This document shows positions 11,341 through 64,000 of a stretch of 64,000 bases of DNA, piece by piece. The position numbers and the translations under genes are program-made. The stretch's first letter is position 1; each line of letters begins with the position of its first letter. The stretch lies in assembly GCF_021390495.1 (NCBI RefSeq), contig NZ_JAJEJP010000003.1, positions 1,364,001 through 1,428,000 of the forward strand, given 5' to 3'. The DNA comes from Paraburkholderia sp. ZP32-5. Its GTDB lineage: Bacteria > Pseudomonadota > Gammaproteobacteria > Burkholderiales > Burkholderiaceae. The notes below the pieces were generated by a model. It ran no database searches. It was not told the origin of the DNA and saw only the letters and a program-made list of their open reading frames with translations.

Positions 11341-14300
11341 TTACAACCTGCTTTTTTCATCGCGGGTCAGATAAGCCCGCTGCACGCCGCCGAGTTCGCC
11401 GAAACCCAGTACCGACACCGGACTCGATGAGTTGTAGCTGACCGTTTCTGGCCTGCGTTTCTTCCGACCGTCGTTGTTGTCCAGCGATTCGCCGAAGCCT
11501 TCGACCTGGACGGAGATGGTCCAGTGGCGTTGCGGGACGCCCGAGGCGTTGTTGCGCACCAGGTTCTGCGCCATCTGTGTGACTGCGGCAGTTGCCGCGC
11601 CCGCTGCGGTCAGTGCGCCGGTATCCACCGCGGCCACCGCCGGAATACCCGTCGACTTGCCGGTCACCTGGATGTTGTCCGCGTTCAACACCTGCAGCGC
11701 GGCGACGTTCAGGTTGCCTGCCCGGATACCCGCATCGCCTGCGTCGACCGTACCGCGCGGTGCAATCAGATCGACCGTACCTGGCGGTACGCCCGGGATG
11801 CTTTGCAGCGTTGCGATGCCCGCGCCGGTTACTTCGCCGCGGGCGTCGACTGTGCAGTAGTGGTTCGGGTCGCACACATACTGCGGCGTCGGCGTATCGG
11901 CCGAGGTCTTCGTCCCCTTGCCCGCGTTGATGTCGCCGTTCGAACTCCAGATCGTCATGTCGCCCCCCTGCTCGGTGAACACGCGACTCTGCGCCAGCAA
12001 CAGGCTACGGTCGGTAAAGATATCGACGTTACCCTGCTCGAGCGTCAGGATGCCTTGCGTGCCCGGGCCTGCCACGACCAGGCCATTTCCGTTGACGATC
12101 TCGGGCGGCGCCGATGTGCTGCCGATCAACGCCTGACCGCCCGGACCGAGGATGGTGACGCTGCCGCCTTGCTGCGTCTGAATGGTGGTACTGCGAATAT
12201 CCAGATCCCCGGTGTCGAGCAACTGGTTCGCGCCGTTCGAGCCGCCGTTCAGATTGTTCGCCGTATAACCTAACGACGCTGGAAACAACGTGTTGATCGC
12301 CTGATACCCGCGCGCATACTGCCCATGAAACGGACTATCCGGATTGTTGAAGTCGTTACCGACCGCGGTCATCACGTTAAACAGTTCCTGCTGCGCGAAC
12401 TGCTGCTGCACGTATGACGGAAGTACCTGGAATTCTTTCCATGCCTGCTGCACCGTCATGTCCTTGACGGTGTTTTGCAGCGCGTTGCTGTCGGACTGCA
12501 GGCCGGTATCGACAACCTGTCCCGCGTCGTATTGCTGTATGAACGCGACCAGTGCATCCGCCGAATTCGATCCACCCGGCACCGAGCTGGCCGGGTTCAC
12601 GTATGCCGAGATAAACGCCGCGTAGTCGACGCCGGGCCCGATACCGAACAGCACCTGAACGTCCGCGCTCTCGTGCGGCAGGTTCGGATTATTCGCGTTG
12701 CCGACCGCTTCGATGCCCGTCGCGCCAGGAGTGAAACCGCTCCCCTTCGCATCGAACGCCTGCTGCTGGCTGGTCAACGGTCCGATGTTGCGTCCCGCTT
12801 CGACGTCGAAACTGCCGGGTCCACCTAGTACGAGGCTCGGCACCACACTCGCGCCGGCGACAAGCGGTGTGTCCAGAATGTCCCGCCCCGCGATGATTCG
12901 CGTGAAATCGGCGGCGCGGAGATTTTGCCCCTGAAATGCAAGGTTCAAAATGTCCTGTCCCGCCTGGATCAGCGCGGGCTTATCCAGCCCGATGGTCACC
13001 AGATTGTCGTAAAAGCCGGCACTCTGATGGCCCGCGGGCTCCAGCGTGCCATCGACGATGCTGCCGTTCAGACTATAGATGCGCGCGGGGTCGAGATCGT
13101 CCGCATGCAGCGCACTTGTGTCGTGCGCAGCATGCGTCGTATCCGTCACCCGCGGCACGTTCGCATTGGGATTCACGGGTGACGGCAGCGACGCCGGATC
13201 GACGTCCAGCATGCCGAATACCGATCCGGTGAGCACGTTACCGGACTGCTGCCCACTACCGACCAGCCCGTCGGCACTGGAAAACTTGATCGATTGATCC
13301 GCGAGGACTGTGAGATTACCTGTCGCGGATGGGAACAGCTGTCCGCCGGACGCAATATCGATACCGCCTGTCAGCGCAACCAGTTGTACGGTTGCGGGCA
13401 AGATCGCGCTCGTATTGGTGAGCCTGCCCAGCGTGAGGGCATTGCCTCCGGCCGGCAGCGTCCCGAACTGCACATCGCCTGTGGTCGATACGACGTTGAT
13501 CGCGGACGTCGTCGAATAACCCTGCATGTCACCGCCCTGCAGATACGACGGATCGAATACGCCACCGATATCGACGCCTTGCCGGGCCGTGACATTCAGC
13601 GTCGCGTCCTGCATCGCGAATAGCGTCGGAACGCTGACCGGAACAGACGAGCCCTGTGGCGGCGCAAAGGCGACGCCCGATTCAATCGCCCCGCCGGCCG
13701 TCACGTTGACCGTACCCTTTGCGACGAAGTAATCGCCACTCAGAATATCGCCGCCGGCCGCGACAGACAGATTCCCGCCGCCCACCGTGTTGACGGTCGG
13801 ATTACCTGTTTGCGCGTTCGTCAAATACCACGTGGTCGGCAGCGACACCGCGAGTTGCGAGATGTCGCCCCCTGCATTCACCGACACATTGCCGCCGGCG
13901 CTCATCACCCCCTGGTCGAATGCACCGAAATCGATCGACGTCTGAACAATTTGACTCGACGTGCCGACGGTGCCCATCACGTTGCCGGTCTGCATCCACG
14001 GGCGCCAGAACTGCGTGATGCTTGCACCGCGCAATCCGGTGACCGCGCCCGACGTATCCACGACATTTTCGAAACCGTTGATATCGCCTTGCGCGTAGAT
14101 CGAAATGTCACCGGCCGAATCCGGATTGACCGCGGGCGTAGCGATAAAGTCAGGCACCGGCGCGGTTACCACGGTTCGATCGCCTTTCACGATCGTCACC
14201 GCGTCACTCGTTGCAGGGGAACCGGACGCCGGTGCACCAGCGGTGTAGATCACGCCCGGCACGATGAAATCGCTGGAATCCGTCGCCTGCGAAGGATCGA

Positions 14301-24252: not shown

Positions 24253-25284
24253 CTAGCTGAGCAACACGATATCGCCCGGCAGCCGGGTCACGTGCGCGCC
24301 AGTGATCTTGCTGATCAGATCGACCGCGCCGCCGATCTTCGCGAGCGCGACTTGCGCATGGACGCGAGCGTCCGCGAGTTCGGCATTGCGCAGGATGATC
24401 CTGCCCGGCCGATAACGATTGATTTCGCTGACGACGTCCGACAGCGGTGCATTCTCGAACACGAGCACGCCGCGGCGCCACGCGGTCACCAGACTCGAAT
24501 CGACGTTCACCGGCGGCTGCACGACGCGATTGCCGTAGGTGATCTGTTGCGCGGCCGTCAACGTGAAGCGGCCCTGCGGATGCTGCAGCGTGACTTCGCC
24601 GGCAACACAGGTCACGCAAACTTCGTCGCCGCTGCGTTTCAGGTTGAAGCGCGCGCTGACCGCCTGCAAACTGCCGCGCGCGGCCCGCACGACGACCGGC
24701 TGCGGCGCTGCGCTGTCGCTACCCGCACCCGCTCCCGCCACGACCTCCGCCTCGCCCGCGAGCAGATCGATACCGTGCGCGCCGCCTTGCGTACCGCCGT
24801 CCGTGCGTACGATGTCGATGCGAGTCTGCGTATTCATTTCGACCACCAGCCGATCGGACAGCACCACGCGACGCTGTTCCCCGGTCGCGGTCCGGTAGTC
24901 GGCCGCCAGATCGCCGAGCGCCGGCCATAGCTGCAGCGGCGGACGCAGCGCCAGCCACGATGCCGCGGCAGCCACACCCGCCCCCATGAAAGCGCGGCGC
25001 CCCGCGCGCCACGACGCCGGCCGGGCGCCACGTTGACCGTGAGGCGTGGAGTCCGCCGCGGAATCCTCCGCGTCCAGTTCGGCACTCGCTGCTTCGAGTC
25101 CATCCCACGCTTCAAGCATCAGGCTCGCGGCACGGGCATGTTCGGGCCGCTCGGCGCACCAGCGCCGGAACGCGGCGGCATCGTCGGCGGTCGCCCGCCC
25201 CGAGCGCAAGCGCACGAGCCATGCCTGCGCCTGCTTCGCGATCGCCGCGGAAGGCACGCCGTCATGATCCGGTTGGCTTGACAT
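24253..25284 (-). CDS. FecR-family anti-sigma factor 1
   Basis: This 343-aa protein should hold the adjacent ECF sigma factor inactive and receive the periplasmic STN signal. Residues 1-60 form the cytoplasmic DUF4880-like sigma-binding domain (AWLVRLRSG...FRRWCAE.PEHARA). A twin-arginine motif (GRRAFMG, Arg96-Arg97) precedes a single membrane segment at about 98-113. The periplasmic FecR domain follows (YRTATGEQRRVVLSD...NTQTRI), then a C-terminal secretin/STN-like domain (INRYRPGRIILRNAEL) that contacts the signalling domain in FecR relatives. ATG 25284 is used because it opens the DUF4880 region just after the sigma gene; the reading frame extends much further upstream but antisense to the sigma-factor frame. 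It lies eight bases after the sigma gene, in one operon. Confidence 0.93.
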   Translation of the reverse strand: MSSQPDHDGVPSAAIAKQAQAWLVRLRSGRATADDAAAFRRWCAERPEHARAASLMLEAWDGLEAASAELDAEDSAADSTPHGQRGARPASWRAGRRAFMGAGVAAAASWLALRPPLQLWPALGDLAADYRTATGEQRRVVLSDRLVVEMNTQTRIDIVRTDGGTQGGAHGIDLLAGEAEVVAGAGAGSDSAAPQPVVVRAARGSLQAVSARFNLKRSGDEVCVTCVAGEVTLQHPQGRFTLTAAQQITYGNRVVQPPVNVDSSLVTAWRRGVLVFENAPLSDVVSEINRYRPGRIILRNAELADARVHAQVALAKIGGAVDLISKITGAHVTRLPGDIVLLS

Positions 25285-49329: not shown

Positions 49330-49824
49330 CTACAGTTCAGCACCGGGGGCGAGCCGCACGACCACCGGCTGCTTCATGCCACGCGGCGGACTCGCGCCGA
49401 CGGCCTGCGCCAGCAGCAAGCTTCGCAGGTCCGCGTCGGCCTGATCGTCATCGATATCTTCCGGCTCGACACGCGTGACCTTGCCCGCGCGATCCAGCCA
49501 GACCCGCACCCGGAACGTCGGCGGATCGGCCAGTTCGCTATCGGCATGCGTATCTGTCGCCGTCCCGGCTTGCGGATCCGTTGCCGTCCGCGCCGCGTCC
49601 AGCCGCGCCGACGCGCGCTCGTCGACCCAGGCGCTGAACCGCTGCGCCGGCACGCTATCGCCCGCGAGCGCGATCTGAAACTGCTGCGACACCCGCTGCG
49701 CATAGACGATCCACGCCTGCGGCGCCTCGTCCGCGGCCACCGTGCCCGCCTGCGCCTGCGTGCCCGTGCCGATCAGCGCAAGCAGCGTCGCACCGAGTGT
49801 ACCGATTCGCGCCGGCAACTTCAT
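49330..49824 (-). CDS. Free-standing TonB-CTD-like secreted protein B
   Basis: This 164-aa protein has a signal peptide (MKLPARIGTLGATLLALIG, ending AQA) and a single TonB C-terminal-like domain: AWIVYAQRVSQQFQIAL, then FRVRVWLDRAGKVTRVEPED, LRSLL and QPVVVRLAP. It resembles the protein at 44719-45156 in every block, with a Thr/Asp-rich insertion between the first helix and the sheet. No membrane anchor or proline-rich spacer is present. ATG 49824 overlaps the YbjN stop as ATGA, so the two genes are coupled. It may bind a component that normally docks a TonB domain. Confidence 0.75.
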   Translation of the reverse strand: MKLPARIGTLGATLLALIGTGTQAQAGTVAADEAPQAWIVYAQRVSQQFQIALAGDSVPAQRFSAWVDERASARLDAARTATDPQAGTATDTHADSELADPPTFRVRVWLDRAGKVTRVEPEDIDDDQADADLRSLLLAQAVGASPPRGMKQPVVVRLAPGAEL

Positions 49825-50435: not shown

Positions 50436-51140
50436 TTAGTTCGCCGGGGCCGCGGGCGCCGATGCGGCGGCCGCGGCACGGGCCGCGGCGGGCTGCATTG
50501 CATTCGGGTCGTACTTGTTGGCGTATAGGGTATCGCCGTAATTCTGCGAAATTGTGTCGTATTTCACGCGCGCGCTCTGCGCAAACGGCTCGCGTGAACT
50601 CAGCACGGTGCCGAGGCCCACGTGCTCGTACGCATCGAGGATCTCGTGACCCACCTGATATAGCTGCACATTCTTCGCCTCGCACATCTGCAACTGCGAC
50701 TGCGTCGTCTTCAGTTGCGTCTGCGCCTGCGTATCGTGCGAGCGCGACACCGTCAGCAGATCGTCATACGCCGACTTGTATTTCGTCAGCTGCTGGCTGT
50801 CGCGTGCATGGCTCGCCTTTTCAGTAGACAGCGCGCGCTCGGCCGCCACCTCGCCGTCGGACTTGCCTTTGGCCGCGGCCAGATCCGCCTGCGCCTGCTT
50901 CAGCTGGGCCAGCGCCTGATCGCGCTGCTGCTGCGCGGCGCTCACGTCGCTCTGCATCTGCGCCTGGCCGTCCTGCAGCTGACGCAACTGCTGCGTCGTC
51001 TCGCGCAACTGGCTACGCAGCCGGTCCTCGATGCTTTGACTTTGAGCCGACGCGCTGCCCGTCGCGAACAGACCACACAGCAGCGCGCCCATGAGAACGG
51101 AAGAACGCATCCCGGTAGACAGGTTCATGGACGACCCCAT
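50436..51140 (-). CDS. Coiled-coil periplasmic protein
   Basis: This 234-aa protein has a signal peptide (hydrophobic VLMGALLCGLFATG, ending ASAQ), a long Gln/Ala/Leu coiled coil (about residues 35-155) and a compact conserved-looking end with GHEILDAYEHVGLG, REPFAQSARVKYD and YGDTLY. Proteins of this plan are often labelled 'DNA repair protein' in Pseudomonas, a name not supported here, since it is exported. ATG 51140 overlaps the porin stop (TAATG); ATG 51128, with GGGG six bases upstream, is an equally good start. By position it may correspond to an accessory periplasmic component such as PhdA of the pdtA locus, but I could not test that. Confidence 0.75.
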   Translation of the reverse strand: MGSSMNLSTGMRSSVLMGALLCGLFATGSASAQSQSIEDRLRSQLRETTQQLRQLQDGQAQMQSDVSAAQQQRDQALAQLKQAQADLAAAKGKSDGEVAAERALSTEKASHARDSQQLTKYKSAYDDLLTVSRSHDTQAQTQLKTTQSQLQMCEAKNVQLYQVGHEILDAYEHVGLGTVLSSREPFAQSARVKYDTISQNYGDTLYANKYDPNAMQPAAARAAAAASAPAAPAN

Positions 51141-52975
51141 TAGAAGCGTGCGTTCATTTCAAGCTGCAGCACGTCGATCGACAGCGGCGGCCCGTAGACT
51201 TCGCGCGCGCTCAGATAGCGCGCCTGCAGCCACGCATTCTTCGCCACCGCGTACTGTGCTCCGACGATGTAGCCCTTCGCGTTGGTGCCGCCCAGATTGA
51301 AGTCCGGATCGGTGAACGCGTCGAGTACCGCATCCGGTTCCAGGTACTTGTAGGTCACCGAGAAATTCCACTGACCCGGCTCGACCGTCTCCGGATTGCC
51401 GAGCGTCGCCTTGAACATGAAGCCGTCGCCGCCGCTCTTGTAGTTCGCTTCCGTCACCGTGCCCGTGGTGCTCGGGTTGTTGTAGTTGTTGATCGGTGTC
51501 GACGCCGCCGCGAACGCCTTGTTCTGGTTGAACGCGAGGTTGCGCACGTACTCGCCGTCGAGACGCAGCTTCATGCGGCCCGCGACGTTCGTATCCCACT
51601 GCAGCTTCGAGTCGAACAGACGATAGTTGTACGCGAGACCGAACAGTTGCTGCTCCGGCGTGAGCCCCGGCGCCAGATTCGGGTTCTGCGCGATGTTGCG
51701 CAGCGCGATCAGCGTGTTGCCCTTCTGCATGAATGCCGGCGCATCGCTATCCGTGCTACAGCTCGTCGCGCCCAGATACATCGCGCACGGCGACGACAAC
51801 TGGCCGCGCAGGTTCATGAAGTCGTAGTACGCGAATGCGCCCTTCAGCCTGTTCTGGTCGTTGACCTGCCACTCGGCGCCCACCTGGCCGCCGACCATCC
51901 ACTTGGTGGTGCCGCCCGGGTTATCCGGATTCTGGCCCAGGAAGCCGTCCGACGCGTACTGGATCGGGAACGCGCCGATCGTGCCGAACAGCGTCACGTC
52001 GTTGTGGCCCGGCAGCAGATGGCGGAAATTCGCCGCGATACCGTCGAACTGCAGATCGTTCGAGAACACAAGATCCGACGAGAAGAACGGATTGTCGAAG
52101 CGGCCCGCCGTGATATTGACCCACGGCAGCGGCGCGTACTTCAGGAACGCCTGGTTCAGCCAGATGTTGTTCTTCGCGAAGCCACCACCGAGCAGGCTGG
52201 TCGTCGACACCGGCCCGTTGTCGTTGCCGCTCGCGAGCTGCAGGCCCGCGATCAACTGGCTGGAGATGTCGGCCGTGACACCGAGGCGCGCGCGCACGCT
52301 CAACTGGTTGTCGCGATCCTGCGTAGTGTTCTGCACCGGGAACGGACGCGTATTGGTGTTCGGGTTGATGTCGATGCCGCCGCCGGAATTGGCCGCCGCG
52401 AAGTTCGTCAGCCCGGTCTCGTTGCGCGGCGAGAAGAAGTTGTACTGGTCACGCACCCGCAGATCGCCGTTCAGGTGAATGCGCGAGACCCAATCGGGAA
52501 ACGTATTCGGCTGCGCCCAGTTCTCGGCCTTCGCCTGCGCGACCACTTCCTGCTTGACCTGGTCGCGAATCTGATCACGCACCACCTGCGGCACGTACGG
52601 CACCGCGACGTCGCCCGGCTGCGTCGGCGCGTTCACGACTGCTGCGCCTGCCACGCCCGCTGTCGCCACTCGGCCGGCCTTGGCCTGGCTCGCTTCGTTC
52701 TGCGCCTGCGCGATCAGCTCGGTGGCGTTCTCCTTCGTCAGCACGCCGCGCTTGACCAGCAGATTGATCAGGTTGATCACCGTGCTGCCGGTCGGCGTCG
52801 ATGCGGCGTTGGCCGACGCATCGGCGGCCTGCGTTTCCAGCGACTGCGCGTGCGCGCAGGCCATGAATCCGATGCCGAGCGCGATCGCCGCGACACTGCT
52901 GCGCACCGCCAGCGATCCCCGTCGCCGGCCGAGTTCGCTACCCCGGCTACCCCGTACTGTGTTCATCTGGGTCAT
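51140..52975 (-). CDS. Putative porin (Porin_5-type outer-membrane beta-barrel)
   Basis: This 611-aa protein has a signal peptide (to about residue 43, ending AHAQ) and an N-terminal helical segment of the putative-porin family (INLLVKRGVLTKENATELIAQA). A long beta-barrel follows, with alternating aromatic strands (RIHLNGDLRVRDQYNFF, VNITAGRFDNPFF, WMVGGQVGAEWQVND) and a C-terminal phenylalanine (QLEMNARF) fit for BAM recognition. Start at ATG 52975 is chosen because GGAG lies six bases upstream; the frame is open another 79 codons across the TonB gene end, without coding character. A porin in a TonB-TPS operon is uncommon; it may admit a ligand or stabilise the outer-membrane complex. Confidence 0.88.
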   Translation of the reverse strand: MTQMNTVRGSRGSELGRRRGSLAVRSSVAAIALGIGFMACAHAQSLETQAADASANAASTPTGSTVINLINLLVKRGVLTKENATELIAQAQNEASQAKAGRVATAGVAGAAVVNAPTQPGDVAVPYVPQVVRDQIRDQVKQEVVAQAKAENWAQPNTFPDWVSRIHLNGDLRVRDQYNFFSPRNETGLTNFAAANSGGGIDINPNTNTRPFPVQNTTQDRDNQLSVRARLGVTADISSQLIAGLQLASGNDNGPVSTTSLLGGGFAKNNIWLNQAFLKYAPLPWVNITAGRFDNPFFSSDLVFSNDLQFDGIAANFRHLLPGHNDVTLFGTIGAFPIQYASDGFLGQNPDNPGGTTKWMVGGQVGAEWQVNDQNRLKGAFAYYDFMNLRGQLSSPCAMYLGATSCSTDSDAPAFMQKGNTLIALRNIAQNPNLAPGLTPEQQLFGLAYNYRLFDSKLQWDTNVAGRMKLRLDGEYVRNLAFNQNKAFAAASTPINNYNNPSTTGTVTEANYKSGGDGFMFKATLGNPETVEPGQWNFSVTYKYLEPDAVLDAFTDPDFNLGGTNAKGYIVGAQYAVAKNAWLQARYLSAREVYGPPLSIDVLQLEMNARF

Positions 52976-53034: not shown

Positions 53035-53736
53035 TTAGCCAGGCTGGCGTCCCTGCATTCGCACCGTCACCGGATACGCGGTCGCCGGCGGCGGTGGTTC
53101 GTCCACCTTGCCCATCGCGAGGACCGCCTGTATCACTGCCGCGTCGAGCTTCGTGTCGCCGGTCGATTGCGCGACCGTTACCTTGGTGATGTGGCCGTTC
53201 GGCTCCATCCACAGGTTCAGCGTGCCGCTAAAGCGCGAGCCGCCGGCATCCTGCACGTTCTTGTCGCGCTCGATCGCCTGTTGCAGCGCGTAGCTGATGT
53301 ACTGCCCGTAGCTCGCGTTGCCGAACGAACCGCCACCGCCGCTGCCCACCATGCCGCCGCCGTCGCCCGCGCCGATGTTGAAGCTGTCCGTGCCGGCCTG
53401 AGCCGGCGCGTTCATCGTCATCTGCTTCGGCTGGTTGTCCGACGGCTTCGGCGCTTCCGCGGGCTTCGGCGCGACGGTCGGTTTCGGCGTCGGCGTCTGC
53501 ACGTCCGGCTGCTTCTCGGGCGGCGGCTTCACCTTCGGCGGAGGCGGTGGAGGCGGCAACGGAATCACGGTCGTCACCTGCGGCGCCTCGGCCCGCTTCA
53601 CGGCGGCCGTATCGGTCGCGAAGCGCCACACCAGCGTCACGACGCCAATGCCGATCAGCGTGAGGACCACCGGCTTCACGAAGCGGCGCCAGCCGGACCC
53701 CGTGTCTCCGGGACCGTTGATGTAGTTCATTTCCAT
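53035..53736 (-). CDS. TonB energy transducer
   Basis: This 233-aa TonB has a cytoplasmic N-terminus, one membrane anchor at about 21-40, a proline/lysine-rich spacer (60-100, with PPPPPPPKVKPPPEKQP) and a glycine-rich stretch. A TonB C-terminal domain spans about 142-228 (YGQYISYALQQAIERD, FSGTLNLWMEPNGHITKVTV, YPVTVRMQ). It should carry the proton-motive force from ExbBD to an outer-membrane partner. The gene begins two bases after the ExbD stop. No TonB-dependent receptor lies in the window, so its partner may be TpsB, the porin, the STN proteins or a receptor elsewhere. Confidence 0.93.
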   Translation of the reverse strand: MEMNYINGPGDTGSGWRRFVKPVVLTLIGIGVVTLVWRFATDTAAVKRAEAPQVTTVIPLPPPPPPPKVKPPPEKQPDVQTPTPKPTVAPKPAEAPKPSDNQPKQMTMNAPAQAGTDSFNIGAGDGGGMVGSGGGGSFGNASYGQYISYALQQAIERDKNVQDAGGSRFSGTLNLWMEPNGHITKVTVAQSTGDTKLDAAVIQAVLAMGKVDEPPPPATAYPVTVRMQGRQPG

Positions 53737-53738
53737 GG

Positions 53739-54158
53739 CTAGCCGCCCGCTTTGCCCTGCGGCCCCTTGCCCGTCACGAGTCCCACCTGTGACAGATCGA
53801 GGCGCCGCAGCAGGTCGAGCACGTCCATCACCCTCTGATAGGCCACGGTCGAGTCGCCCTTGAGTACGATCGGTACGTCAGGCGTGGTCGCCTTGATGGT
53901 GCGCAGCCGGTTCTCGAGTTCGTCCATCGACACCGGATAGGCATCCAGATAGATCTGCCCCGAATCGGACACGGTGATCGCCTTCGTCTGCGGCTTGGCA
54001 AGACTCGCCGAGGAGCTCGCCTTCGGCAGATCGACCTTGATCCCCTGCACCGAAGCGGTTGTCATGATGATGAAGATGATCAGCAGCACGTACGCCAGGT
54101 CTAGCATCGGCGTGATGTTGATATCGTCATAGGGCTTGTCATCGTCCTGAACCTGCAT
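53739..54158 (-). CDS. ExbD/TolR-type proton channel subunit
   Basis: This 139-aa protein has a short cytoplasmic N-terminus (MQVQDDDKPYDDINITPM), a single membrane segment (about 18-38) bearing the proton-carrying Asp20 in the PMLDLAYVLL motif, and a periplasmic domain (VSDSGQIYLDAYPVSMDEL, VPIVLKGD, RVMDVLDLLRRL). It forms the Ton motor with the neighbouring ExbB and TonB. GGAGAG precedes ATG 54158. Gaps to the neighbouring genes are 13 and 2 bases, so the three genes are one operon. Confidence 0.95.
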   Translation of the reverse strand: MQVQDDDKPYDDINITPMLDLAYVLLIIFIIMTTASVQGIKVDLPKASSSASLAKPQTKAITVSDSGQIYLDAYPVSMDELENRLRTIKATTPDVPIVLKGDSTVAYQRVMDVLDLLRRLDLSQVGLVTGKGPQGKAGG

Positions 54159-54171: not shown

Positions 54172-55998
54172 TTACGCCGCGCTCAGCGAGTGCTCGGGAC
54201 TCGCGTGGACTTCAGCGAGACGCGTGACGAACTCATCGACGAACACCTGCATGTTCGCGGTCACGTTCTTGTTGCGGATCAGCAGGTAGTTGTAGCCAAA
54301 CAGCGCCGGAATCGCGACGAACAGACCCGTGACGGTGGCAAGCAGTGCCGCCGCGATACCCGGTGCGATTGCGTTGACGTTGACGTCGCCGGCGGCCGCG
54401 ATCGCGGCGAAGGTGATCATCACGCCGACCACCGTACCGAGCAGGCCGAGGAACGGACCGCCCGAAATCGCGATCGTCAGCAGCACCATCGACTTCGACA
54501 GTTGCTGGTTCTCGCGCACGAGCGTGGCATCCATCGTGGCGCGGATCGCTTCGATCGACTCGGCCGTGATCTGCGCGCGACCGTTGCGGTCCATCCGGCT
54601 ATCGATTTCCGACACCCCTGCCGCATACAGACGGTACAGCGACGATTGACGCAGACGGCGGCCCTCGTCGGAGCGTTCGTCGACATGCGACAGACCCACC
54701 AGATGCTTGCCCGCGGTCTCGCGGAAGCGCTTTACGAAGAAGCCGTTGGCCTTGTCCAGCCGGTTCACGTACGACGCCTTCGTGTACATCACGACCCACG
54801 AAATGAACGCCATCACCAGCAGGATGCCGATGACCACCCATGCGTCGATCGTCACCGAATGCACGATCACGCCGAAGTAACCGAAGCCGAAGCCCGACTG
54901 TTTCTCATCGGCACCGTAGGTCACCAGCTTCGATTCGGTGCCTTGATTCAGCGCGTCGATCGCGATCAGCGTCGGCGAACGTGCCACCTTCGACAGGCGC
55001 AGTTCGTCGATCTCGCCAACGTAGCCACCCGCGGCCGGCGCGGCTGCACCGCTTGCCGGAGCCGCGGCAGCGGCCGCGCCCGCGACATCGCCGCCGATTG
55101 CGGTCGGCGTGTTCAGTGCCGGCAGCGTCGCGGCAACCTGACCTGCCTGCTGACCGCCTACGTACAGCGTCACGTTCTTGCCGTCCGCCGTGACCGCGAT
55201 ATGGCTCCACTGATTCGCTGCGACGGCCTGGCCAGCCTGCGCACGGAGCGGTGCCGCACCGCCGTCGACCTCGACATACGGCACGCCGTTGTCGAGTCCG
55301 ATCAGCAGCGCGTTGGCGCCGTCGCGGCGGCTATAGAGCAGCGTGGCCGGCGCGAGCGAGGCCGGCTTGACCCATGCGCTGAAGCTGAAATTGCCGCCTG
55401 CCGCCACGGCCAGCGACGGGCTCGCGGCGATGCTGAGCGGCGTGCCGTCGAACTGCGCGGCGCGGCCGACGATGCCGTCCTCGACCGTCTTGGCCGGCGC
55501 GTTCTGCGCGTTGTTGCCGTACGCGGTGACGTCCTTCGGCGGCGTGCCCGCGGCGTTATCGAAGTGGTACACCAGCGTGTAGTCGGGATCGAATGTCTCC
55601 GACGGCTTGCCGCCATCCGGCGCCTTCTTGTTGCCGTAGTACATCCAGATGGATTGCGTCGCGCCCGCCGGGAACTGAGGCACGTCGACCCACACGAGCG
55701 CCACGCCGAGCACCGCGTCGTACTGCTCGATGTGGTAATTCAGCGGCGTCTTGTCGTCCGCTGCAACGAAACGGATATCCGCGCCGTTGTCCTCCAGGCC
55801 GTCGAACTGGAAGTTGCCCGAGTGCAGGCGGATCAACAGCGGCACGCGGCCAGCCTGCGCCGAAATGTTCGCGCCCTTCGGCGTCGCATCGATCGTGATC
55901 GATTTGCGGTACGACCAGTCGTTCTGCCACCAGGCGTTCGCCACGCCAGGCAGGCAGCCCAGTAGCACCATCGTCAAGAGAAACAAGGCTCGCTTCAC
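54172..55998 (-). CDS. DUF2341-LamG-ExbB fusion protein
   Basis: This 608-aa protein joins a periplasmic sensor-like half to an ExbB/TolQ/MotA proton channel. A signal peptide (1-22, ending ANA) is followed by DUF2341 at about 25-150 (WWQNDWSYRKSITIDATPKG, IWMYYGN). A LamG/concanavalin-like domain covers about 165-340 (VEDGIVGRAAQFDG, FSFSAWVKP, WSHIAVTADGKNVTLYVGG, GYVGEIDELRLSKVARS). The ExbB part starts at about 380, with membrane segments at about 384-406, 503-533 and 546-575 and the GPFLGLLGTVVGVMITF motif. Ordinary ExbB is about 240 aa. The start is GTG 55998, with GGGGGA seven bases upstream. The added domain may bind a glycan or protein in the periplasm and so couple the motor to exoprotein traffic. 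Confidence 0.9.
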   Translation of the reverse strand: MKRALFLLTMVLLGCLPGVANAWWQNDWSYRKSITIDATPKGANISAQAGRVPLLIRLHSGNFQFDGLEDNGADIRFVAADDKTPLNYHIEQYDAVLGVALVWVDVPQFPAGATQSIWMYYGNKKAPDGGKPSETFDPDYTLVYHFDNAAGTPPKDVTAYGNNAQNAPAKTVEDGIVGRAAQFDGTPLSIAASPSLAVAAGGNFSFSAWVKPASLAPATLLYSRRDGANALLIGLDNGVPYVEVDGGAAPLRAQAGQAVAANQWSHIAVTADGKNVTLYVGGQQAGQVAATLPALNTPTAIGGDVAGAAAAAAPASGAAAPAAGGYVGEIDELRLSKVARSPTLIAIDALNQGTESKLVTYGADEKQSGFGFGYFGVIVHSVTIDAWVVIGILLVMAFISWVVMYTKASYVNRLDKANGFFVKRFRETAGKHLVGLSHVDERSDEGRRLRQSSLYRLYAAGVSEIDSRMDRNGRAQITAESIEAIRATMDATLVRENQQLSKSMVLLTIAISGGPFLGLLGTVVGVMITFAAIAAAGDVNVNAIAPGIAAALLATVTGLFVAIPALFGYNYLLIRNKNVTANMQVFVDEFVTRLAEVHASPEHSLSAA

Positions 55999-56067: not shown

Positions 56068-57738
56068 TTAAAAAGTCCCGCGTACATAGAACTGGAACCG
56101 CGGGCTATATGCCTTCGTGTAGGTCGCCGACCTGAGCGGGAACGCCATTTCGAGCGCCGCGCTCGCGTACTTCATCAACTGGATGCGCGTACCGACACCC
56201 GCGCTCACCAGCGTGAATTCCGAGGTCTGCTCCGGCAGCGGACTCAGCAGCCACAGGTGCGCCGCATCGACGAACGCGTGGAAGCGCCACTCGTCGACCG
56301 CGCTGCCCACGTACTTCGCGATCGACGGGCTTCTCAGTTCGAGCGAACCGATGACCCCGCTGTCGGCCGTGTCTTCAGCCTCCAGGTAGCCGCGCACGGT
56401 ATTGATGCCGCCCGCCGCGAACTGCTCGCTGGACACGAGCGGCGAATTGGCGAACTGCGCGCTGACGTGGCCATTGAGCTGGACATCGCGCGGCAGATCC
56501 TGCGTGTGATTGACGTCGAACTTGCCGTAGACGAAGTCCGGCGTTGCGTTGAAGCGCTTCTGGTCCCACGCGTCCGCATCGCTGCCGAGACCGCGGATGT
56601 TGGTCGTCAGCGACGCGGAGAACGACGTCTGCGAGTTCTTCAGGTTCAACTGGCCGGTGTAGGCGAACGTGACCGGAACGTAGGTGAGCGGCGCCTCCGA
56701 CGTCTGCCCCGCGATCGTGTCGTCCTCGTCGAAGTGCTTGTGATCGATCTCGACGCTCACCGACTGCGAGTAGATGTCGGTCGAAGGCAGCGCATAGATC
56801 GCCGTCAGCCCGAACGACGTGCCCTTGCCCAACACGTTCGTGCCGCCGAGCGACGCGACGTCGCTGTTCGAGTGGAACACCGTCGCCATCAGGCTCCAGT
56901 GCGAGTCCTTCAGCGGCGCGAGATACGAGAACGAATAGACCTGGGCATCGCGCGGGTGCTGCGGCGCGAGCAGGAAGCTGCCCGACATCACATGGCCGAG
57001 CTGCCACAGGTTCGAATAGCTGAGCGATGCGACGGTGCGCAGCTCCGCGGTGTTCGGGCTCTGGTCGTTGTTCAGTTCGAGGCTGCCGTGCGCGGCGCTA
57101 TGGTCGGTCACGTTCAGGTCCACGTCGACCGTCTGCGGCATCACGCCCGGCTTGAGCACCGGAATCACCTGACTGTCCGGCGAGCGGTTCAACTCGGTGA
57201 GCTGCTGCTGCGCGGCGTTGAAGTCCGGTACCGTGCCTTCCGTCAGAGCCGGCACGGCTTCGCGGATTTTCAGCGGCGAGTCGTACTTCGCTCCCTCGAC
57301 GCGCAGACGGCCGACCTTCGCCTCCACCACCTGCAGCACGATCACACCGTTCTTGACCTGCTGCTGCGGCAGCTCGACAGCGACCGACTGGTAGCCGTTG
57401 TCCTGATAGACCTTCTGCAACGCATCGCGCGCGGCGTTCACGTCCTTTAGCGTGCGGCCCGGGCCTTCGAACGGATAGACCGCCTTCTCGACGTCGAGGC
57501 TCGACAGCGTCGTATTACCTCGCACGATGAACTCGTTCACGTCGAACGTCGCCGGCAGTGCGCCCGCCGCGGTGGGCGCCGCGGGTGCCGCGGGTGCCTG
57601 TGCGGCCCCCGCATCCGGTGCTGTCTGCTGCGCCTGTGCCTTGACGAACGGAACCAGCGTCATGCCGCCGATCAACAGTATCCCCGCAAGCCGCGGTCCC
57701 CGGCGGCCCGCCACCTCATCACTTACCCATGGCGTCAT
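56068..57738 (-). CDS. TpsB outer-membrane transporter (ShlB/FhaC/HecB family)
   Basis: This 556-aa protein is the two-partner-secretion pore. A signal peptide ends near AQAQ (residue 37), followed by an Ala/Pro-rich linker. POTRA 1 lies at about 65-142 (FDVNEFIVRGNTTL, GVIVLQVVEAKVG) and POTRA 2 at about 144-215. A 16-strand-type barrel fills 220-556, with the loop-6 VRGYLE motif near residue 448 and a C-terminal Phe (FYVRGTF). POTRA domains recognise the TPS domain of the TpsA. It is the only TpsB in the window for three TpsAs. ATG 57738 has GGGG six bases upstream. It is the first gene of the 14-gene minus-strand cluster, 69 bp before ExbB. Confidence 0.95.
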   Translation of the reverse strand: MTPWVSDEVAGRRGPRLAGILLIGGMTLVPFVKAQAQQTAPDAGAAQAPAAPAAPTAAGALPATFDVNEFIVRGNTTLSSLDVEKAVYPFEGPGRTLKDVNAARDALQKVYQDNGYQSVAVELPQQQVKNGVIVLQVVEAKVGRLRVEGAKYDSPLKIREAVPALTEGTVPDFNAAQQQLTELNRSPDSQVIPVLKPGVMPQTVDVDLNVTDHSAAHGSLELNNDQSPNTAELRTVASLSYSNLWQLGHVMSGSFLLAPQHPRDAQVYSFSYLAPLKDSHWSLMATVFHSNSDVASLGGTNVLGKGTSFGLTAIYALPSTDIYSQSVSVEIDHKHFDEDDTIAGQTSEAPLTYVPVTFAYTGQLNLKNSQTSFSASLTTNIRGLGSDADAWDQKRFNATPDFVYGKFDVNHTQDLPRDVQLNGHVSAQFANSPLVSSEQFAAGGINTVRGYLEAEDTADSGVIGSLELRSPSIAKYVGSAVDEWRFHAFVDAAHLWLLSPLPEQTSEFTLVSAGVGTRIQLMKYASAALEMAFPLRSATYTKAYSPRFQFYVRGTF

Positions 57739-58543: not shown

Positions 58544-61500
58544 CTACATATCGTTCAACCCGTTCTTCTCATCCTTGCTCAGATAGGCACGCTGCGAATC
58601 CCCCAATGCACCGAAGCCAAGCACGGCGACCGAAGCCGACGGGTTATAAGCCACCGGCCCCGGCTTGCGCTTTTTGCGCTCGCCGTCATCGACCGATTCA
58701 CCGAAGCCCTCGACCTGCACCGAGATGGTCCAGTGACGTTGCGGGATCCCCGATGCGTTGTTGCGCACCAGGTTCTGCGCCATCTGCGTAACCGCCGAGG
58801 TGGCCGCGCTCGCCGCCGTCAGCGCGCCGGTATCGACGCTCGCCACCACCGGCACGCCGGTCGTCTTGCCCTGCACCGTGATGTTGACCGCATTGAGCAC
58901 CTGCAACGCGGCAATGTTCAGGTTGCCCGACACGCGGATACCCGCGGCACCCGCGTCCACCGTCCCGCGTGGCGCCAGCAGGTTCACGTTGCCCGGCGGC
59001 GCGTCGGGAATCGTCTGCAGCGTTGCGATACCGGCACCCGTCACCTCGCCGCGCGCATCGACCGTGCAGTAGTGGTTGACATCGCAGTCGTACTGCAACG
59101 GCGGCACGTCGGCGACCGACTTCGAGCCCTTGCCGGCATTGATGTCGCCGTTCGAACTCCAGATCGTCATGTCGCCGCCCTGCTCGGTGAACACGCGGCT
59201 TTGCGCGAGCAGCAGGCTCTGGTCCGTGAAGATGTCGACGTCGCCTTTCTCGAGCGTCAGAATGCCCATCGAGCCCGGGCCGACGACCACGCCGCCGACG
59301 CCGTTGACCAGTTCCGGCGGCGCGACCGTGCTGCCGACCAGCGCCTGTCCGCCCGGGCCGAGAATCGTCACGTTGCCGCCCTGCTGCGTCTGGATCGTCG
59401 TACTGCGAATGTCGAGGTTGCCGGTCGTTACCGTCTGGCCGCCGTTGACGCCGCCGGTCAGGTCGTTCGCGGTGTAGCCGTAGGCAGCCGGGAACAGCGT
59501 GTTGATCGCCTGATAGCCGCGCGAGTACTGCCCGTGGAACGGACTCGACGGGTCGTTGTAGTCATTGCCGACGTCGGTCAGCACGCTGAACAGCACCTGC
59601 TCGGCGAACAGCCGCTGCTCGTATGCGGGCAGCGCCTGGAACTGCTGCCATGCGGTGGCGACGCTCAGCGTGCCCACCTTGGCTGCCGCGGCATCGCGGG
59701 TACTCTGCAGGCCGTCGTCGATACCGTGGCCCGCATCGTATTGCTCCATGAATGCGACCAGCGCGGCAGAGGAACTCGGCACGCCCGCCACCGAACTGGA
59801 CGGATCGATATACGTCGCGACGAAATCGGCCAGGTCGATACCCGGACCGACGCCGAACAGCACGTTCACGTTCGCGCTCTGGTGCGGCAGGTTCGGATTG
59901 TTCGCGTTGCCGACCGCATCGATGCCGGTCGTGCCCGCCTGGTAGAACTCGTTCTGTCCGGTCGCGTTATAGCCTTCCTGGCCATTCGTCAGCGGCCCGA
60001 TATTGCGGCCGGCCTCGATGTCGAACGTACCCGGTCCGCCCAGCGCGAGCACCGGCACGACCGGGCTCGGCGAAGACGCCAGTGGCGTGTCGTAGATATC
60101 GCGCCCGGCGAGGATCTGCGTGACGTCGTCGTCGCGCAGGTTCTGGCCGTTGAACATCAGGTTGACGATGTCCTGCGCGGCTTCGATCTGCGCGGGCTTA
60201 TCGACGCCGACGTTGACGATGTGATTGTAGAAGCCCGCGTTGTTCTGGCCTGGCGCTTCGAACACGCCGTCGACGATGCTGCCGTCGAGGCTGTAGATCT
60301 GCACCGGCAGCGTGTCGTCGGCATGCAGCGGCGTCAGCGTATGGTTGCCGGTGCTGGTGCTGCTGAGCGACGGCACGGTCGTGATGTGATTACCGGCATC
60401 GGGCATCAGCGACGGATCGAGGTCGAGCATGCCGAACGTGGGGAAGGCATTTTCCTGCGACGACAGACTGATCGACTGCGCGGCGATCAGGCTCAGTTCG
60501 CCGGTCGGCGACGGGAATAGCTCGCCGCCCGACGCAACCGTGATGCCGCCGGCCAGCGCGGCAATCTGGACGCTCGCGGGCAGCACGTACGACATGTCGT
60601 CGCCCGCGCCGCCGATCAGATTCAGCGATCCTGGACTGGTCGCGAGCGTGCCGAGTTCGACGTTGCCGGTCGTCGCCGCGATATCGAGCGCGGAGCGGGT
60701 CGAATACGCCTGCTCGTCCGGCTTGCCCGGCTGGCCGAAACTCGTGACATAGGACGGATCGACCATCGCGCCGATGTCGACGCCCTGGCGCGCGCTGACG
60801 TCGAACACCGCGTCCTGTGCGCCGAGCACCGTCGCGATCTGGCCCAGCGACAGGTTGTGGTTTCCGCCGACGGTGAACACGTTCGGGTTGTAGGTCGTGT
60901 AATCGCTGCCGTCCGGGGCGATCTGTCCGCCCGCGCTGATCGTCGCATTGCCGCGGCCGACGAAATAGTCGCCGCTCAGAATATTGCCGCCGGCCACGAC
61001 GCTGAGGTTGCCGCCGCCGACCGTCACCGCGCTATTCGACGCGTCCAGATACCAACTGGTCGGCAACGACACCGCGAGATCGACGATATTGCCGCCGGCC
61101 GACACCGATACATTGCCGCCGACGCTCATCACCCCCTGATCGAAGCCGCCGAAGTTGATCGACGCCTGCGTGACGTTGCCGTTCGAGTCCACCGGGTTGC
61201 CGGTTTCCATCCACTGCCACCAGAACTGACGGATATCGGTGCCGACGTTGCCGGTGATGCTGCCGTCCGCATCGATGGCCTGCTCGACGCCGACGATGTC
61301 GTGTTGCGCGTGAATCGAAATGTCGCCGCCGGCCTCCGGACTGACAGTCGGGCTGACCACCAGTCCGGCAATCCCTTGACTCGGATTGGCGTTGATCAGC
61401 GTCGCGCTCTGGCCGACCGGTGCGCCCGCCGCCGGTATGCCGGCCGTGTAGATGGCGCCCGGCGCGGTGGTGTCGAGCAGTTGCACGTCGTTGGCCGCGG

Positions 61501-64000
61501 CAATCTGGATCGAGCCCGTGCCGGTTCGGATCATCGTCGGCGACGTGATGATGAGGCCGTCGCTATTCAGGAAGTCGGTGTGACCGTCGAGCGACACGTC
61601 ACCGCCGCCCGATGCGCTGAACAGCGATGCCGCCTGCAGCGCGAGCGGATTCGCGCTGTTCATGTCGGCGCCGGCCACGAACCGGAACGTCGAACTGTTG
61701 CCGCCGTTCAGCGACTGCGATTGCAACGGCAACGGATTGGCGGCCGTCACGATCGGCGACGGCGTGTTGTCGGTCAGCGGCGCGACGATGATCTGGATCG
61801 TCGTGCCGTTGCTGCCCGGACCCCGCGTTCCGCCGCTGGTGTTGATCGACCCGGTGATCCCCTGCACTGCCGGCGGCGTCGGAAAACCGATGAACTGGGC
61901 CTGATTTTCAGCGGCTTGAATCTGCGCGCCGAATTCGTTCAGGTATTCCAGATAGAGCAGCGGCGTGCTCGCCTGCAGGCCCGGCGCCGGCGCGGTCGGC
62001 GCAACCAGGTTGCCGGTCGCGGCCGGTAAGCGGTGCGACGTCGCCAGCTCCTGCATGTTGGTGATCCCGCCGCCGTTCGCGGGCGGATACGGGTCGATCA
62101 GGAATTCGGCATAGGCGGCGTACAACGCATAGTATTCGGCGATCTGGTTCGCATCCGTCGTGTTCGTCGGAATGCCAGGACCCCAGATCTCGCCCTGGTA
62201 CGAGTTGCCGCTGTTCTGGCCGTAATACGACAGCAGCGTGCCGCCGGGGTAGGTCCCCTGCGGCGTATTCGCGTACAGGTTGAAGTCGAACGCGTAATCC
62301 GTCGGATCCGGTACATAGATCGACGTCGTGCTGCCCGGATGCACCGGATTGGCGATCTGGAAGAACCCGTCGGTGACGCTCGCATCGACCTCGACGTTGT
62401 TCGCCGCGCGGAACGTGATGATCGGCGCCTGACCGTTGAAGCGGTACGACAGCATGCCCGGCGTCGCGCCCGAGCCGAGGTTCCAGTTCGTCACGATCGA
62501 GATGTTGCCGTTGTTGATCGCGTTGTCCGGATTGTCGAGTTCGATACCCGGCACCACGTTGACTGCCGGCATGGCGGCGAACTGCTGGGCGACGCCGCTC
62601 ACGCCGTTGGCGACGAACTGCATCAGCGTGCCCGGTATCACGGTCTGCGTGCCGTCGCCGTTGATCACCGTCTGCGCGCCGTAGAACATCTGGTGATTGG
62701 TATTCGTTGCGCCATCGGCCGGCACGAACGTGTCGTTCGTCAGGTCGCTGGCCAGATCGCTTTTGATCTGCGCCCACGACGCGCCCGGATCGTTCGACAG
62801 CGTGGCCGTGGTCCATGTGCCGGTCGACGCGTCGTAGGTGCCGGGCGTGTAGTCGATCGTGTTGCCCTTCGGGTCGGTGAAGGTGCCCTTCACGAGCTGC
62901 GCCGTGCCGTCCGGACCGACCGGCTGATACCACCCGGCCGGATCGACGATGCCGTCGAAGTGCTGCGCGCCGGTCGTCGTATCGGTGGTGCTCCACACTG
63001 CGTACGCTTCGAGATTCACCGCGCGCGCGCCCTTGATGTTGGCGCCCGACAATCCGACGTTCACGTACTGGCCGCCATTGGTCGCCGCGTCGCTGAGCAG
63101 CGGCGCGCGCAGGTTCACGACGCCGCCGAACAGGCCATCCTGCAGCACCGTCGCCATGCCGCCGCCGGACACGTCGATCGTCGCGCCCGAGCCCAGCGTG
63201 ATCTTGCCGGAGTTGCCGTACGCGACGTTCTCGTAACCGTATTGCGCGTTATATGAACCGGATGTCGGCGTGCCGCTGGTGCCGATATTGATCGTGCCGC
63301 CGAGCTGCGTCGACAGCGCGTTCGCGACCGGCGCCGCGGACGGATCGGAATTCGGCAGGTACGCGTCCGAGCCCTCGGCGCTCAGCGTGCCTTCGACGTC
63401 GACGCTGCTGCGTCCATACAGATCGATCGTGCCGCCCGCGTGCCCTCCCGATGCATCGGCAATGCCGTTCGCGTCGATCGTGCCGTTGATGATCACATTG
63501 CCGTTCGCGGTATCCGCCGCGCTGCCCGCGCCGCCGTCGGCGCTCAGCGACACCGTGTGCGCGTTGATCGAATGGCCGCTCGACAGCACCAGGTTGCCGG
63601 TCCTGGTCTCGATCGTGATCGCGTTGTTCACGCCGCTGGTCGCGAGTTCGGTCGCGAGATTGTCGAGATCGACCGCGCCGCCGGTGGCGAGCGAGAACGA
63701 TCCGCCGGTGTAGCCGGAGGCCGCGCCACCGCTGATCGTGCCGTTCAGTTCGACGGTCTGGTCCGGCGCCGACAGCGTCAGACTGCCGGCCGCACCGCCG
63801 CCCTTCGCGCCCGCGAAGTTCAGCGTCGAGCCCGCCGCGACATTCACGGTGCCGATATCGGACGTCAGCGAGATCGCGCCGCCCGGCGCGAAGACCGCCG
63901 TATCGAACACCGGCAGCGCAACGCCGCCCACATCGATGGTCGAGCCGGCCGCGATATCGACGTCGCCCGCGCTCGCCTCCATCGTCACATCGCCGCCCGG
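58544..64000 (-). CDS. Giant filamentous-haemagglutinin-family exoprotein (TpsA 3, N-terminus outside window)
   Basis: The frame is open from the right edge to the stop at 58544, giving at least 1818 C-terminal residues; the signal peptide and TPS domain lie beyond 64000. The visible part is homologous to the C-terminal 40% or so of TpsA 1 and 2. It has beta-helix repeats, the AVWST segment with DPAGWY (62920-63015), a divergent helical insert (about 61900-62160), the conserved non-repeat block near 59480-59890 and the DUF3739-like C-terminus with CDVNHYC. It diverges more from TpsA 1 and 2 than they do from each other, especially in the helical insert and the loop after the STDD segment. Its own regulator genes, if any, lie outside the window. 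Confidence 0.9.
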   Translation of the reverse strand, partial: PGGDVTMEASAGDVDIAAGSTIDVGGVALPVFDTAVFAPGGAISLTSDIGTVNVAAGSTLNFAGAKGGGAAGSLTLSAPDQTVELNGTISGGAASGYTGGSFSLATGGAVDLDNLATELATSGVNNAITIETRTGNLVLSSGHSINAHTVSLSADGGAGSAADTANGNVIINGTIDANGIADASGGHAGGTIDLYGRSSVDVEGTLSAEGSDAYLPNSDPSAAPVANALSTQLGGTINIGTSGTPTSGSYNAQYGYENVAYGNSGKITLGSGATIDVSGGGMATVLQDGLFGGVVNLRAPLLSDAATNGGQYVNVGLSGANIKGARAVNLEAYAVWSTTDTTTGAQHFDGIVDPAGWYQPVGPDGTAQLVKGTFTDPKGNTIDYTPGTYDASTGTWTTATLSNDPGASWAQIKSDLASDLTNDTFVPADGATNTNHQMFYGAQTVINGDGTQTVIPGTLMQFVANGVSGVAQQFAAMPAVNVVPGIELDNPDNAINNGNISIVTNWNLGSGATPGMLSYRFNGQAPIITFRAANNVEVDASVTDGFFQIANPVHPGSTTSIYVPDPTDYAFDFNLYANTPQGTYPGGTLLSYYGQNSGNSYQGEIWGPGIPTNTTDANQIAEYYALYAAYAEFLIDPYPPANGGGITNMQELATSHRLPAATGNLVAPTAPAPGLQASTPLLYLEYLNEFGAQIQAAENQAQFIGFPTPPAVQGITGSINTSGGTRGPGSNGTTIQIIVAPLTDNTPSPIVTAANPLPLQSQSLNGGNSSTFRFVAGADMNSANPLALQAASLFSASGGGDVSLDGHTDFLNSDGLIITSPTMIRTGTGSIQIAAANDVQLLDTTAPGAIYTAGIPAAGAPVGQSATLINANPSQGIAGLVVSPTVSPEAGGDISIHAQHDIVGVEQAIDADGSITGNVGTDIRQFWWQWMETGNPVDSNGNVTQASINFGGFDQGVMSVGGNVSVSAGGNIVDLAVSLPTSWYLDASNSAVTVGGGNLSVVAGGNILSGDYFVGRGNATISAGGQIAPDGSDYTTYNPNVFTVGGNHNLSLGQIATVLGAQDAVFDVSARQGVDIGAMVDPSYVTSFGQPGKPDEQAYSTRSALDIAATTGNVELGTLATSPGSLNLIGGAGDDMSYVLPASVQIAALAGGITVASGGELFPSPTGELSLIAAQSISLSSQENAFPTFGMLDLDPSLMPDAGNHITTVPSLSSTSTGNHTLTPLHADDTLPVQIYSLDGSIVDGVFEAPGQNNAGFYNHIVNVGVDKPAQIEAAQDIVNLMFNGQNLRDDDVTQILAGRDIYDTPLASSPSPVVPVLALGGPGTFDIEAGRNIGPLTNGQEGYNATGQNEFYQAGTTGIDAVGNANNPNLPHQSANVNVLFGVGPGIDLADFVATYIDPSSSVAGVPSSSAALVAFMEQYDAGHGIDDGLQSTRDAAAAKVGTLSVATAWQQFQALPAYEQRLFAEQVLFSVLTDVGNDYNDPSSPFHGQYSRGYQAINTLFPAAYGYTANDLTGGVNGGQTVTTGNLDIRSTTIQTQQGGNVTILGPGGQALVGSTVAPPELVNGVGGVVVGPGSMGILTLEKGDVDIFTDQSLLLAQSRVFTEQGGDMTIWSSNGDINAGKGSKSVADVPPLQYDCDVNHYCTVDARGEVTGAGIATLQTIPDAPPGNVNLLAPRGTVDAGAAGIRVSGNLNIAALQVLNAVNITVQGKTTGVPVVASVDTGALTAASAATSAVTQMAQNLVRNNASGIPQRHWTISVQVEGFGESVDDGERKKRKPGPVAYNPSASVAVLGFGALGDSQRAYLSKDEKNGLNDM

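Follow-up and report, generated by a model that had tools for sequence, protein, structure and literature searches.

A PUMA3/Pdt-type locus of Paraburkholderia sp. ZP32-5 with repeated vreA-vreI-vreR-tpsA cassettes and a Ton motor linked to the TpsB transporter

Gene content of the locus

A 64,000-nucleotide stretch of the genome of Paraburkholderia sp. ZP32-5 (contig NZ_JAJEJP010000003.1, designated C3, positions 1,364,001 to 1,428,000), referred to here as the window, carries a large two-partner secretion (TPS) cluster in which giant exoproteins (TpsA) and a TpsB transporter are encoded together with a complete Ton motor (ExbB, ExbD and TonB) and with signalling modules of the vreA-vreI-vreR (vreAIR) type. 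All of the cluster genes, from position 11341 to the window end, were on the minus strand. In the direction of transcription, the first half consisted of tpsA3, tpsB, the exbB fusion, exbD, tonB, the Porin_5 gene, g20, YbjN, g18 and PpiC, and the second half of g16, g15, DegP, g13, vreA2-vreI2-vreR2-tpsA2, the DUF4915 gene and vreA1-vreI1-vreR1-tpsA1 (Table 1). The start of tpsA3, read from the next stretch of the genome, was near position 71437 in window numbering, and a vreA3-vreI3-vreR3 module was located just beyond the window, upstream of this gene. There were thus three modules for the three TpsAs of C3, each TpsA being directly preceded by its own. The order receptor, sigma factor, FecR was found in all three C3 modules and in that of a second copy of the system on contig C2. 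A preliminary description of the window had listed three TpsAs, one TpsB, the Ton motor, PpiC, an HtrA protease and two signalling modules, nearly all on one strand; the parts and the strand were confirmed, except that TpsA3 is incomplete within the window and that a third module lies outside it.

The TPS domain (PF05860) scored over its cut-off at all three C3 tpsA genes, while a full-length scan (expect value, E, up to 0.01) detected it in tpsA2 and missed it in tpsA1. The window TpsB had one detected POTRA domain; classical TpsBs have two. For TpsA1 and TpsA2, a reading as CdiA-type (contact-dependent inhibition) toxins was rejected, since both end in DUF3739 and matched no Pfam toxin family. 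The mechanically called open reading frames (ORFs) of both FecR proteins, both STN proteins, TpsA2, the porin and 44719-45525 are probably too long at their 5' ends; the trimmed starts given in Table 1 are our choice. No tRNA or Rfam match was found within the window.

The genome comprises 9.09 Mb in four contigs, and a second complete copy of the system occupied C2:945001-1003000. Its first part contained tpsA4, two PBP_like_2 proteins, which we take to be phosphate-binding-like, type II secretion genes (secretin, T2SSE and T2SSF in Pfam), vreA4-vreI4-vreR4 and a DUF4915 gene. The rest contained tpsB, the exbB fusion, exbD, tonB, porin, g20, YbjN, PpiC, g16, g15, a relative of DegP (L026:12967-14022) to which the first 122 residues of the window DegP were unmatched, and a g13/g18-like protein. 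The two copies were 91% identical in exbD, 90% in the porin and 94% in g20. Altogether, the genome had 11 TPS-domain matches, four DUF3739 TpsAs, four VreA and two Porin_5 matches, both of the latter falling in the two clusters. Of its ten POTRA_2 (TpsB-like) genes, exactly the two in the clusters had an ExbD within 5 kb, and the other eight were more than 40 kb from any ExbD. Recent gene conversion among the tpsA genes of this genome was considered and rejected: third-position identity at identical residues was 0.58-0.66, and no 150-codon window exceeded 0.85.

Table 1. Coordinates of the cluster features in window numbering
Feature	Position	Strand	Remarks
tpsA1	11341..23985	-	4214 amino acids; TPS domain (genome search) and C-terminal DUF3739
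vreR1, FecR-type anti-sigma	24253..25284	-	DUF4880 and FecR; trimmed start
vreI1, extracytoplasmic function (ECF) sigma factor	25293..25877	-	
vreA1	25841..26587	-	apparent signal peptide, STN and TonB/TolA-like C-terminal domain; no beta-barrel
Pho-box-like 7-4-7 direct repeat	26678..26695	-	-108 from vreA1 start
DUF4915/TIGR03032 protein, no assigned function	26829..28016	-	near tpsB in relatives too
tpsA2	28231..40956	-	4241 amino acids from trimmed start; TPS domain and DUF3739
vreR2, FecR-type anti-sigma	41451..42461	-	trimmed start
vreI2, ECF sigma factor	42473..43021	-	
vreA2	43023..43760	-	STN and TonB-like C-terminal domain
Pho-box-like direct repeat	43863..43880	-	-120 from vreA2 start
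g13, small, apparently exported	44719..45156	-	predicted TonB/TolA C-terminal-domain-like fold
DegP/HtrA protease-chaperone	45162..46610	-	PDZ domains; His, Asp and Ser motifs present
g15, small, apparently exported, no assigned function	47051..47509	-	two conserved Cys
g16, 267 amino acids, no assigned function	47475..48278	-	N-terminal Cys/His cluster
PpiC-type prolyl isomerase	48295..49206	-	
g18, second small, apparently exported protein of g13 type	49330..49824	-	shares g13 alignment
YbjN-family protein, PA0698-like	49821..50405	-	
g20, coiled-coil-like protein, PA0697 position	50436..51140	-	
Porin_5 outer-membrane protein, PA0696 position	51140..52975	-	trimmed start
TonB, TonB4 position	53035..53736	-	TonB_2 above its cut-off
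ExbD	53739..54158	-	NITPMLD motif present
ExbB with N-terminal DUF2341-LamG (Laminin_G_3) region	54172..55998	-	
TpsB transporter	56068..57738	-	POTRA_2 and ShlB
tpsA3, 3' part	58544..64000	-	gene goes on outside the window

Conservation of the TPS and Ton genes

The DUF3739 exoproteins and the LamG-ExbB fusion occurred in the same genomes. A survey of 150 family genomes detected DUF3739 in 23, and these 23 were also the ones with the fusion (E at most 1e-60). Among 398 genomes of the phylum, 14 had both and none had only one of the two; absence here means a score below the thresholds used. Three genomes (G000, G002 and G011) were positive in both surveys, giving 34 positive genomes, and the surveys share some negatives too. 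The chance of drawing identical sets at random would be vanishing, but the genomes are related, so that this is not a fair probability. The distribution was patchy: two of the 14 listed genomes of the same genus, our own included, carried both genes, and the phylum list spanned seven families. This patchiness speaks against simple vertical inheritance. The ExbB fusion was unmatched in phage records at E up to 1e-20.

The order of the genes was nearly constant. In 20 loci, taken from 20 of the 22 positive family genomes other than our own, tpsB, exbB, exbD, tonB, porin, g20 and YbjN kept their order and strand without exception. In a scan of named genomes, 504 stretches encoded something related to the ExbB fusion at E of 1e-3 or less, of which the best 80 were kept, a selection that favours close relatives; 72 of these 80 loci were untruncated, and the counts below rest on them. 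In 71 of the 72, tpsB-exbB-exbD-tonB was found in order on the same strand, with the porin and g20 also present in order in 70. YbjN was also present in 44, with none detected in loci of the Dyella and Luteibacter type; hits to PpiC were obtained in 41 loci and to DegP in 23. The exceptions were L175, which had no porin or g20 hits, and L187, a Sphingomonadales metagenome-assembled genome contig lacking tpsB. The two sets of loci overlap, with at least six genomes in both. The core order recurred in Alpha-, Beta- and Gammaproteobacteria as well as on plasmids. The preliminary description had named a lack of co-conservation as one of the outcomes that would refute its account, and the TPS and Ton genes did stay together in both surveys and in the gene-order comparisons. 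As side observations, a DUF4915/TIGR03032 protein was encoded near tpsB in 17 of the 72 named loci, and g15 lay on the opposite strand near tpsB in several other clades.

Signalling modules, plasmids and regulation

The number of signalling modules followed the number of exoproteins, which the number of motors mostly did not. Only full-length VreA hits scoring roughly 100 bits and upwards were counted. Those dropped as too weak were for the most part signalling domains within frames exceeding 750 residues, and one, in G500, covers tonB. VreA and TpsA numbers agreed in 22 of the 23 positive family genomes and nine of the 14 positive phylum genomes (together 28 of 34), and in eight of the ten genomes with several TpsAs. 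The ExbB fusion was single in 32 of the 34 genomes, with two in G000 and G303. Four of the 34 TpsA-bearing genomes (G097, G168, G500 and G412) had no VreA above threshold, and a profile search of the fetched stretches did not find vreAIR near their clusters. All four retained the motor, porin and g20, and tpsB was found in all except G412, where the pieces lie on two contigs.

Among plasmid records, the ExbB fusion occurred in 11, DUF3739 in 15 and both in ten, although this evidence is weaker in either direction because one replicon is not a genome and the PLSDB gene tables are incomplete. A conjugative IncFIB plasmid of Klebsiella quasipneumoniae (NZ_CP084804.1, L218) had the core, two giant TpsAs and, in the stretch, one vreAIR module; an arsenic resistance region was located about 4 kb from this core. 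A plasmid of Methylosinus sp. C49 carried vreAIR, core and TpsA. In the stretches from plasmids of Methylosinus trichosporium, Variovorax boronicumulans and Cupriavidus basilensis, three of the five DUF3739 replicons that have no ExbB fusion, vreAIR-tpsA was present with no annotated tpsB. On the M. trichosporium OB3b plasmid (L223), the annotation splits the satellite tpsA, which follows a vreAIR module, into two overlapping coding sequences. An Aquabacterium olei plasmid encoded a POTRA protein, a filamentous-haemagglutinin-type gene, the ExbB fusion, two exbD, tonB, a porin and a hypothetical gene. There was no vreAIR in the stretch shown and DUF3739 was undetected on the replicon at E up to 1e-10, so that at this threshold the plasmid is an exception to the DUF3739/ExbB-fusion pairing.

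All four vreA genes of the genome were preceded, on the coding strand, by a Pho-box-like 7-4-7 direct repeat at -106 to -120. Each repeat was modest when taken alone, with 1.2 to 7.5% of background regions scoring as high; for the other upstream regions tested in this genome, leaving out tpsA, at least 16.5% of the background did as well. In 22 hand-picked representatives of 34 scanned modules, the mean score upstream of vreA was 9.77 of 14. Random regions averaged 8.29, with none of 300 sets reaching the vreA mean, and the wrong strand gave 8.82; of 400 permuted half-sites one, itself a near-variant, scored as high. Three relatives had matches of 13 or 14 of 14 upstream of vreA. The tpsA1 and tpsA2 genes also have Pho-box candidates. 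PhoB of Pseudomonas aeruginosa binds to the promoters of vreA and pdtA, where both PhoB and sigma-VreI are required (PMC4971064).

The distances among VreA, VreI and VreR sequences correlated with those among the TpsAs (Mantel r 0.74-0.75, 0 of 2000 permutations, 30 modules), as expected from cassette inheritance alone. In the same-genome pairs G125a/G125c, G140a/G140b and G082a/G082c, TpsAs that were 68-73% identical were accompanied by regulators of only 24-45% identity. Regulator insulation, in which the regulators of paralogues within one genome would have diverged more than their TpsAs predict, was rejected (mean percentile 0.54-0.55 in 17 within-genome pairs).

A structural model of VreA (mean predicted local distance difference test score, pLDDT, 80.8) matched the signalling domains of PupB, FpvA and FecA, and its C-terminal part matched the C-terminal domains of TolA and TonB, in agreement with published modelling of VreA (PMC2729926). 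The top 24 matches of the g13 model (mean pLDDT 82.8) were the C-terminal domains of TonB, TolA, HasB or FusB, all of them weak, at E 0.012 or worse and with low template modelling (TM) scores. On this basis, the cluster encodes at least one small, apparently exported protein that resembles a TonB C-terminal domain standing alone. Profile comparison of the small proteins with VreA was less clear than the fold model, reaching a probability of only 19, and a sequence search of their alignment against solved structures returned two weak, unrelated matches only. Hits to g13 or g18 were obtained in 30 of the 72 named loci, some of them weak and probably falling on TonB or VreA. It is possible that g13 and g18 are competitors or adaptors for TonB.

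Interpretation, related systems and flanking sequence

On balance, the probable explanation of these observations is a PUMA3/Pdt-type locus made of a fixed, shared export core and of pluggable, phosphate-gated vreA-vreI-vreR-tpsA cassettes. The core would comprise TpsB, the LamG-ExbB/ExbD/TonB motor, the Porin_5 barrel and the coiled-coil protein, with PpiC and, here, DegP as its likely periplasmic chaperones. The cassette, usually present once per giant exoprotein, would duplicate or move separately and use the shared core; all three TpsAs of C3 would presumably do so. Phosphate starvation would switch on each vreAIR through PhoB, an additional signal would release the sigma factor from VreR, and the sigma factor, probably with PhoB, would transcribe the adjacent tpsA. 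The TpsA would then pass PpiC and DegP and cross the outer membrane through TpsB, and the motor would work on a TpsA-specific envelope step, for example extracting the roughly 4,200-residue chain at the end, releasing it or assembling it at the surface. DegP facilitates secretion of filamentous haemagglutinin (FHA) in Bordetella (PMC5422565), which makes the chaperone role of DegP and, by extension, PpiC plausible. More tentatively, at somewhat less than even odds, the likeliest single task of the motor would be the export, release or surface assembly of the giant TpsA. With similar reserve, the DUF3739-marked exoproteins may define a TPS class that is powered or completed by its own proton-motive Ton motor (LamG-ExbB, ExbD and TonB), together with a dedicated porin and coiled-coil protein, and whose exoproteins are interchangeable, sigma-controlled cassettes that duplicate, travel on plasmids and share one core.

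Several observations weigh against this explanation, 1) the genome counts are not phylogenetically independent, 2) G348 has three TpsA and four VreA, and G303 has two TpsA genes and one VreA, 3) the pairing on plasmids is incomplete, since 10 of 15 DUF3739 replicons and 10 of 11 ExbB-fusion replicons hold both, 4) some vreA upstream regions (for example G125b and G082a) score only 8 of 14, and Pho boxes at the tpsA promoters were rejected as not specific, their mean of 9.1 exceeding random regions (0 of 300) and being equalled by 12 of about 300 permuted half-sites, 5) a conserved TonB box was not seen when TpsB and the porin were inspected by eye and 6) P. aeruginosa insertion mutants of the tonB homologue, tpsA and tpsB, with VreI overexpressed, were as virulent as the wild type in zebrafish embryos (PMC2729926), a result that bears on virulence and not on export.

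The main rival to motor-driven export is TonB-driven uptake with the porin, in which the TpsA would bind a phosphorus-containing ligand at the cell surface and pass it to Porin_5, by analogy with HxuA/HxuB/HxuC. The position of Porin_5 after tonB (70 of 72 named loci), the confinement of the genome's only two Porin_5 matches to the two clusters, the PBP_like_2 proteins and type II secretion genes that accompany the C2 copy, the Pho-box-like repeats at vreA and the HxuABC precedent (PMC5422565) all suit such nutrient capture. However, the cluster porin showed only the porin domain, and PpiC, DegP and the tight linkage to tpsB fit protein export better. Moreover, to our knowledge Porin_5 is not a family of TonB-dependent receptors, and we regard uptake as unlikely. 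The Ton genes could also serve signalling, with TonB and VreA releasing VreI from VreR while export remains passive as in other TPS systems. Classical cell-surface signalling needs TonB, and VreA carries both a signalling domain and a TonB/TolA-like domain, but exbB-exbD-tonB is kept in core loci with no detected vreAIR, and the VreA count follows TpsA whereas the motor count mostly does not. Because the motor stays where vreAIR was not found, a motor for signalling only is very unlikely, and a role in export, surface assembly or uptake is favoured.

The preliminary description had proposed a self-sensing adhesin export machine; in such a feedback, each VreA/VreR pair would detect its own TpsA in transit and tune its expression. 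The nearly 1:1 copy number and frequent adjacency of VreA and TpsA and the correlated distances would be expected of this arrangement. Cassette inheritance alone accounts for the correlation, however, and recognition of a TpsA by its own VreA and VreR is not favoured because similar TpsAs stand behind such diverged regulators. With four of 34 TpsA genomes having no VreA above threshold as well, the proposal was left unsupported, and we judge it quite unlikely. Finally, ordinary TPS genes might lie beside an unrelated Ton operon by chance, an idea that draws on the view that type V secretion needs no energy source (PMC5422565). The identical genome sets in two surveys and the order conserved across three proteobacterial classes and plasmids contradict it; since the same order recurs in other genomes, a chance assembly is scarcely conceivable.

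The locus is a Burkholderiaceae version of PUMA3/Pdt. The kinship to P. aeruginosa put forward in the preliminary description was borne out, as that species has the order pdtB-exbB2-exbD2-tonB4-porin-PA0697-YbjN-PpiC (PMC7035377). The likeness to PUMA3 (VreA/VreI/VreR, PdtA/PdtB, ExbB2/ExbD2, TonB4 and PA0696-PA0699) covers the tpsB-to-PpiC order, the small g18 gene apart, the domain make-up of VreA, the Pho-box-like repeat at vreA and the type II secretion genes, here beside the C2 copy. That copy resembles the P. aeruginosa arrangement, where vreAIR and pdtA are neighbours of the Hxc type II system (PMC2729926, PMC7035377). Unlike P. aeruginosa, the window locus has three cassettes by one core and the genome has a second copy of the whole system; the additions to the cluster are DegP and DUF4915 and possibly g15, g16 and the two small proteins g13 and g18. 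PdtA and PdtB are a functional pair in that species. The tandem duplication of module and tpsA was already published in 2009: Llamas and co-workers described four PUMA3 modules in Rhodopseudomonas palustris and in Janthinobacterium, of which three precede a tpsA gene and the fourth precedes tpsB with exbBD (PMC2729926). Those clusters share with ours the repeated module, the tpsA genes after modules and a tpsB with exbBD in the set, whereas here there are three modules, one per TpsA, and tpsB directly follows tpsA3 rather than a fourth module. The counts in G348 match those published for R. palustris (Llamas 2009). In HxuABC of Haemophilus influenzae, a TPS system is coupled to a TonB-dependent process (PMC5422565). 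There, HxuC is a TonB-dependent haem transporter, whereas the window cluster has a Porin_5 barrel with a linked motor and yielded no receptor of that kind. Bordetella FHA (FhaB/FhaC) is similar in that a giant TpsA passes through a TpsB with DegP tied to its passage (PMC5422565).

A literature search, mostly without subscription papers, found no test of the Ton dependence of TPS export, no pairing of DUF3739 exoproteins with a LamG-ExbB motor, no separable core and cassettes or retention of the motor without vreAIR, and no match to the word DUF3739. We know of no Ton motor or sigma cassette described for Bordetella FHA, where DegP is encoded outside the fha cluster. What is new here is the DUF3739/ExbB-fusion pairing, the conserved core order, the tracking of VreA and TpsA numbers together with the core-only loci and plasmid cassettes, and the Pho-box enrichment. 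Type V secretion moves giant chains with no energy source, and how it does so is an open question (PMC5422565). Among the whole genomes surveyed, a defined TPS class was always accompanied by one kind of linked Ton motor, even where signalling genes were undetected, and whether any TPS uses proton-motive force thereby becomes answerable by gene deletion.

A 1321-codon open frame on the plus strand (35833-39798), antisense to tpsA2, is probably a by-product of the high G+C content and not a gene. Between DegP and g15, at about 46670-46890, there was a short minus-strand ORF of about 74 residues in a frame different from that of the listed mechanical ORF. The left flank (1-11240) looks unrelated to the cluster and encodes, as read by eye from the translations, a sensor kinase, a LysR regulator, a short-chain dehydrogenase/reductase (SDR) enzyme and resistance-nodulation-division (RND) efflux genes, as well as an enzyme of the phosphoenolpyruvate (PEP) mutase family identified with Pfam.

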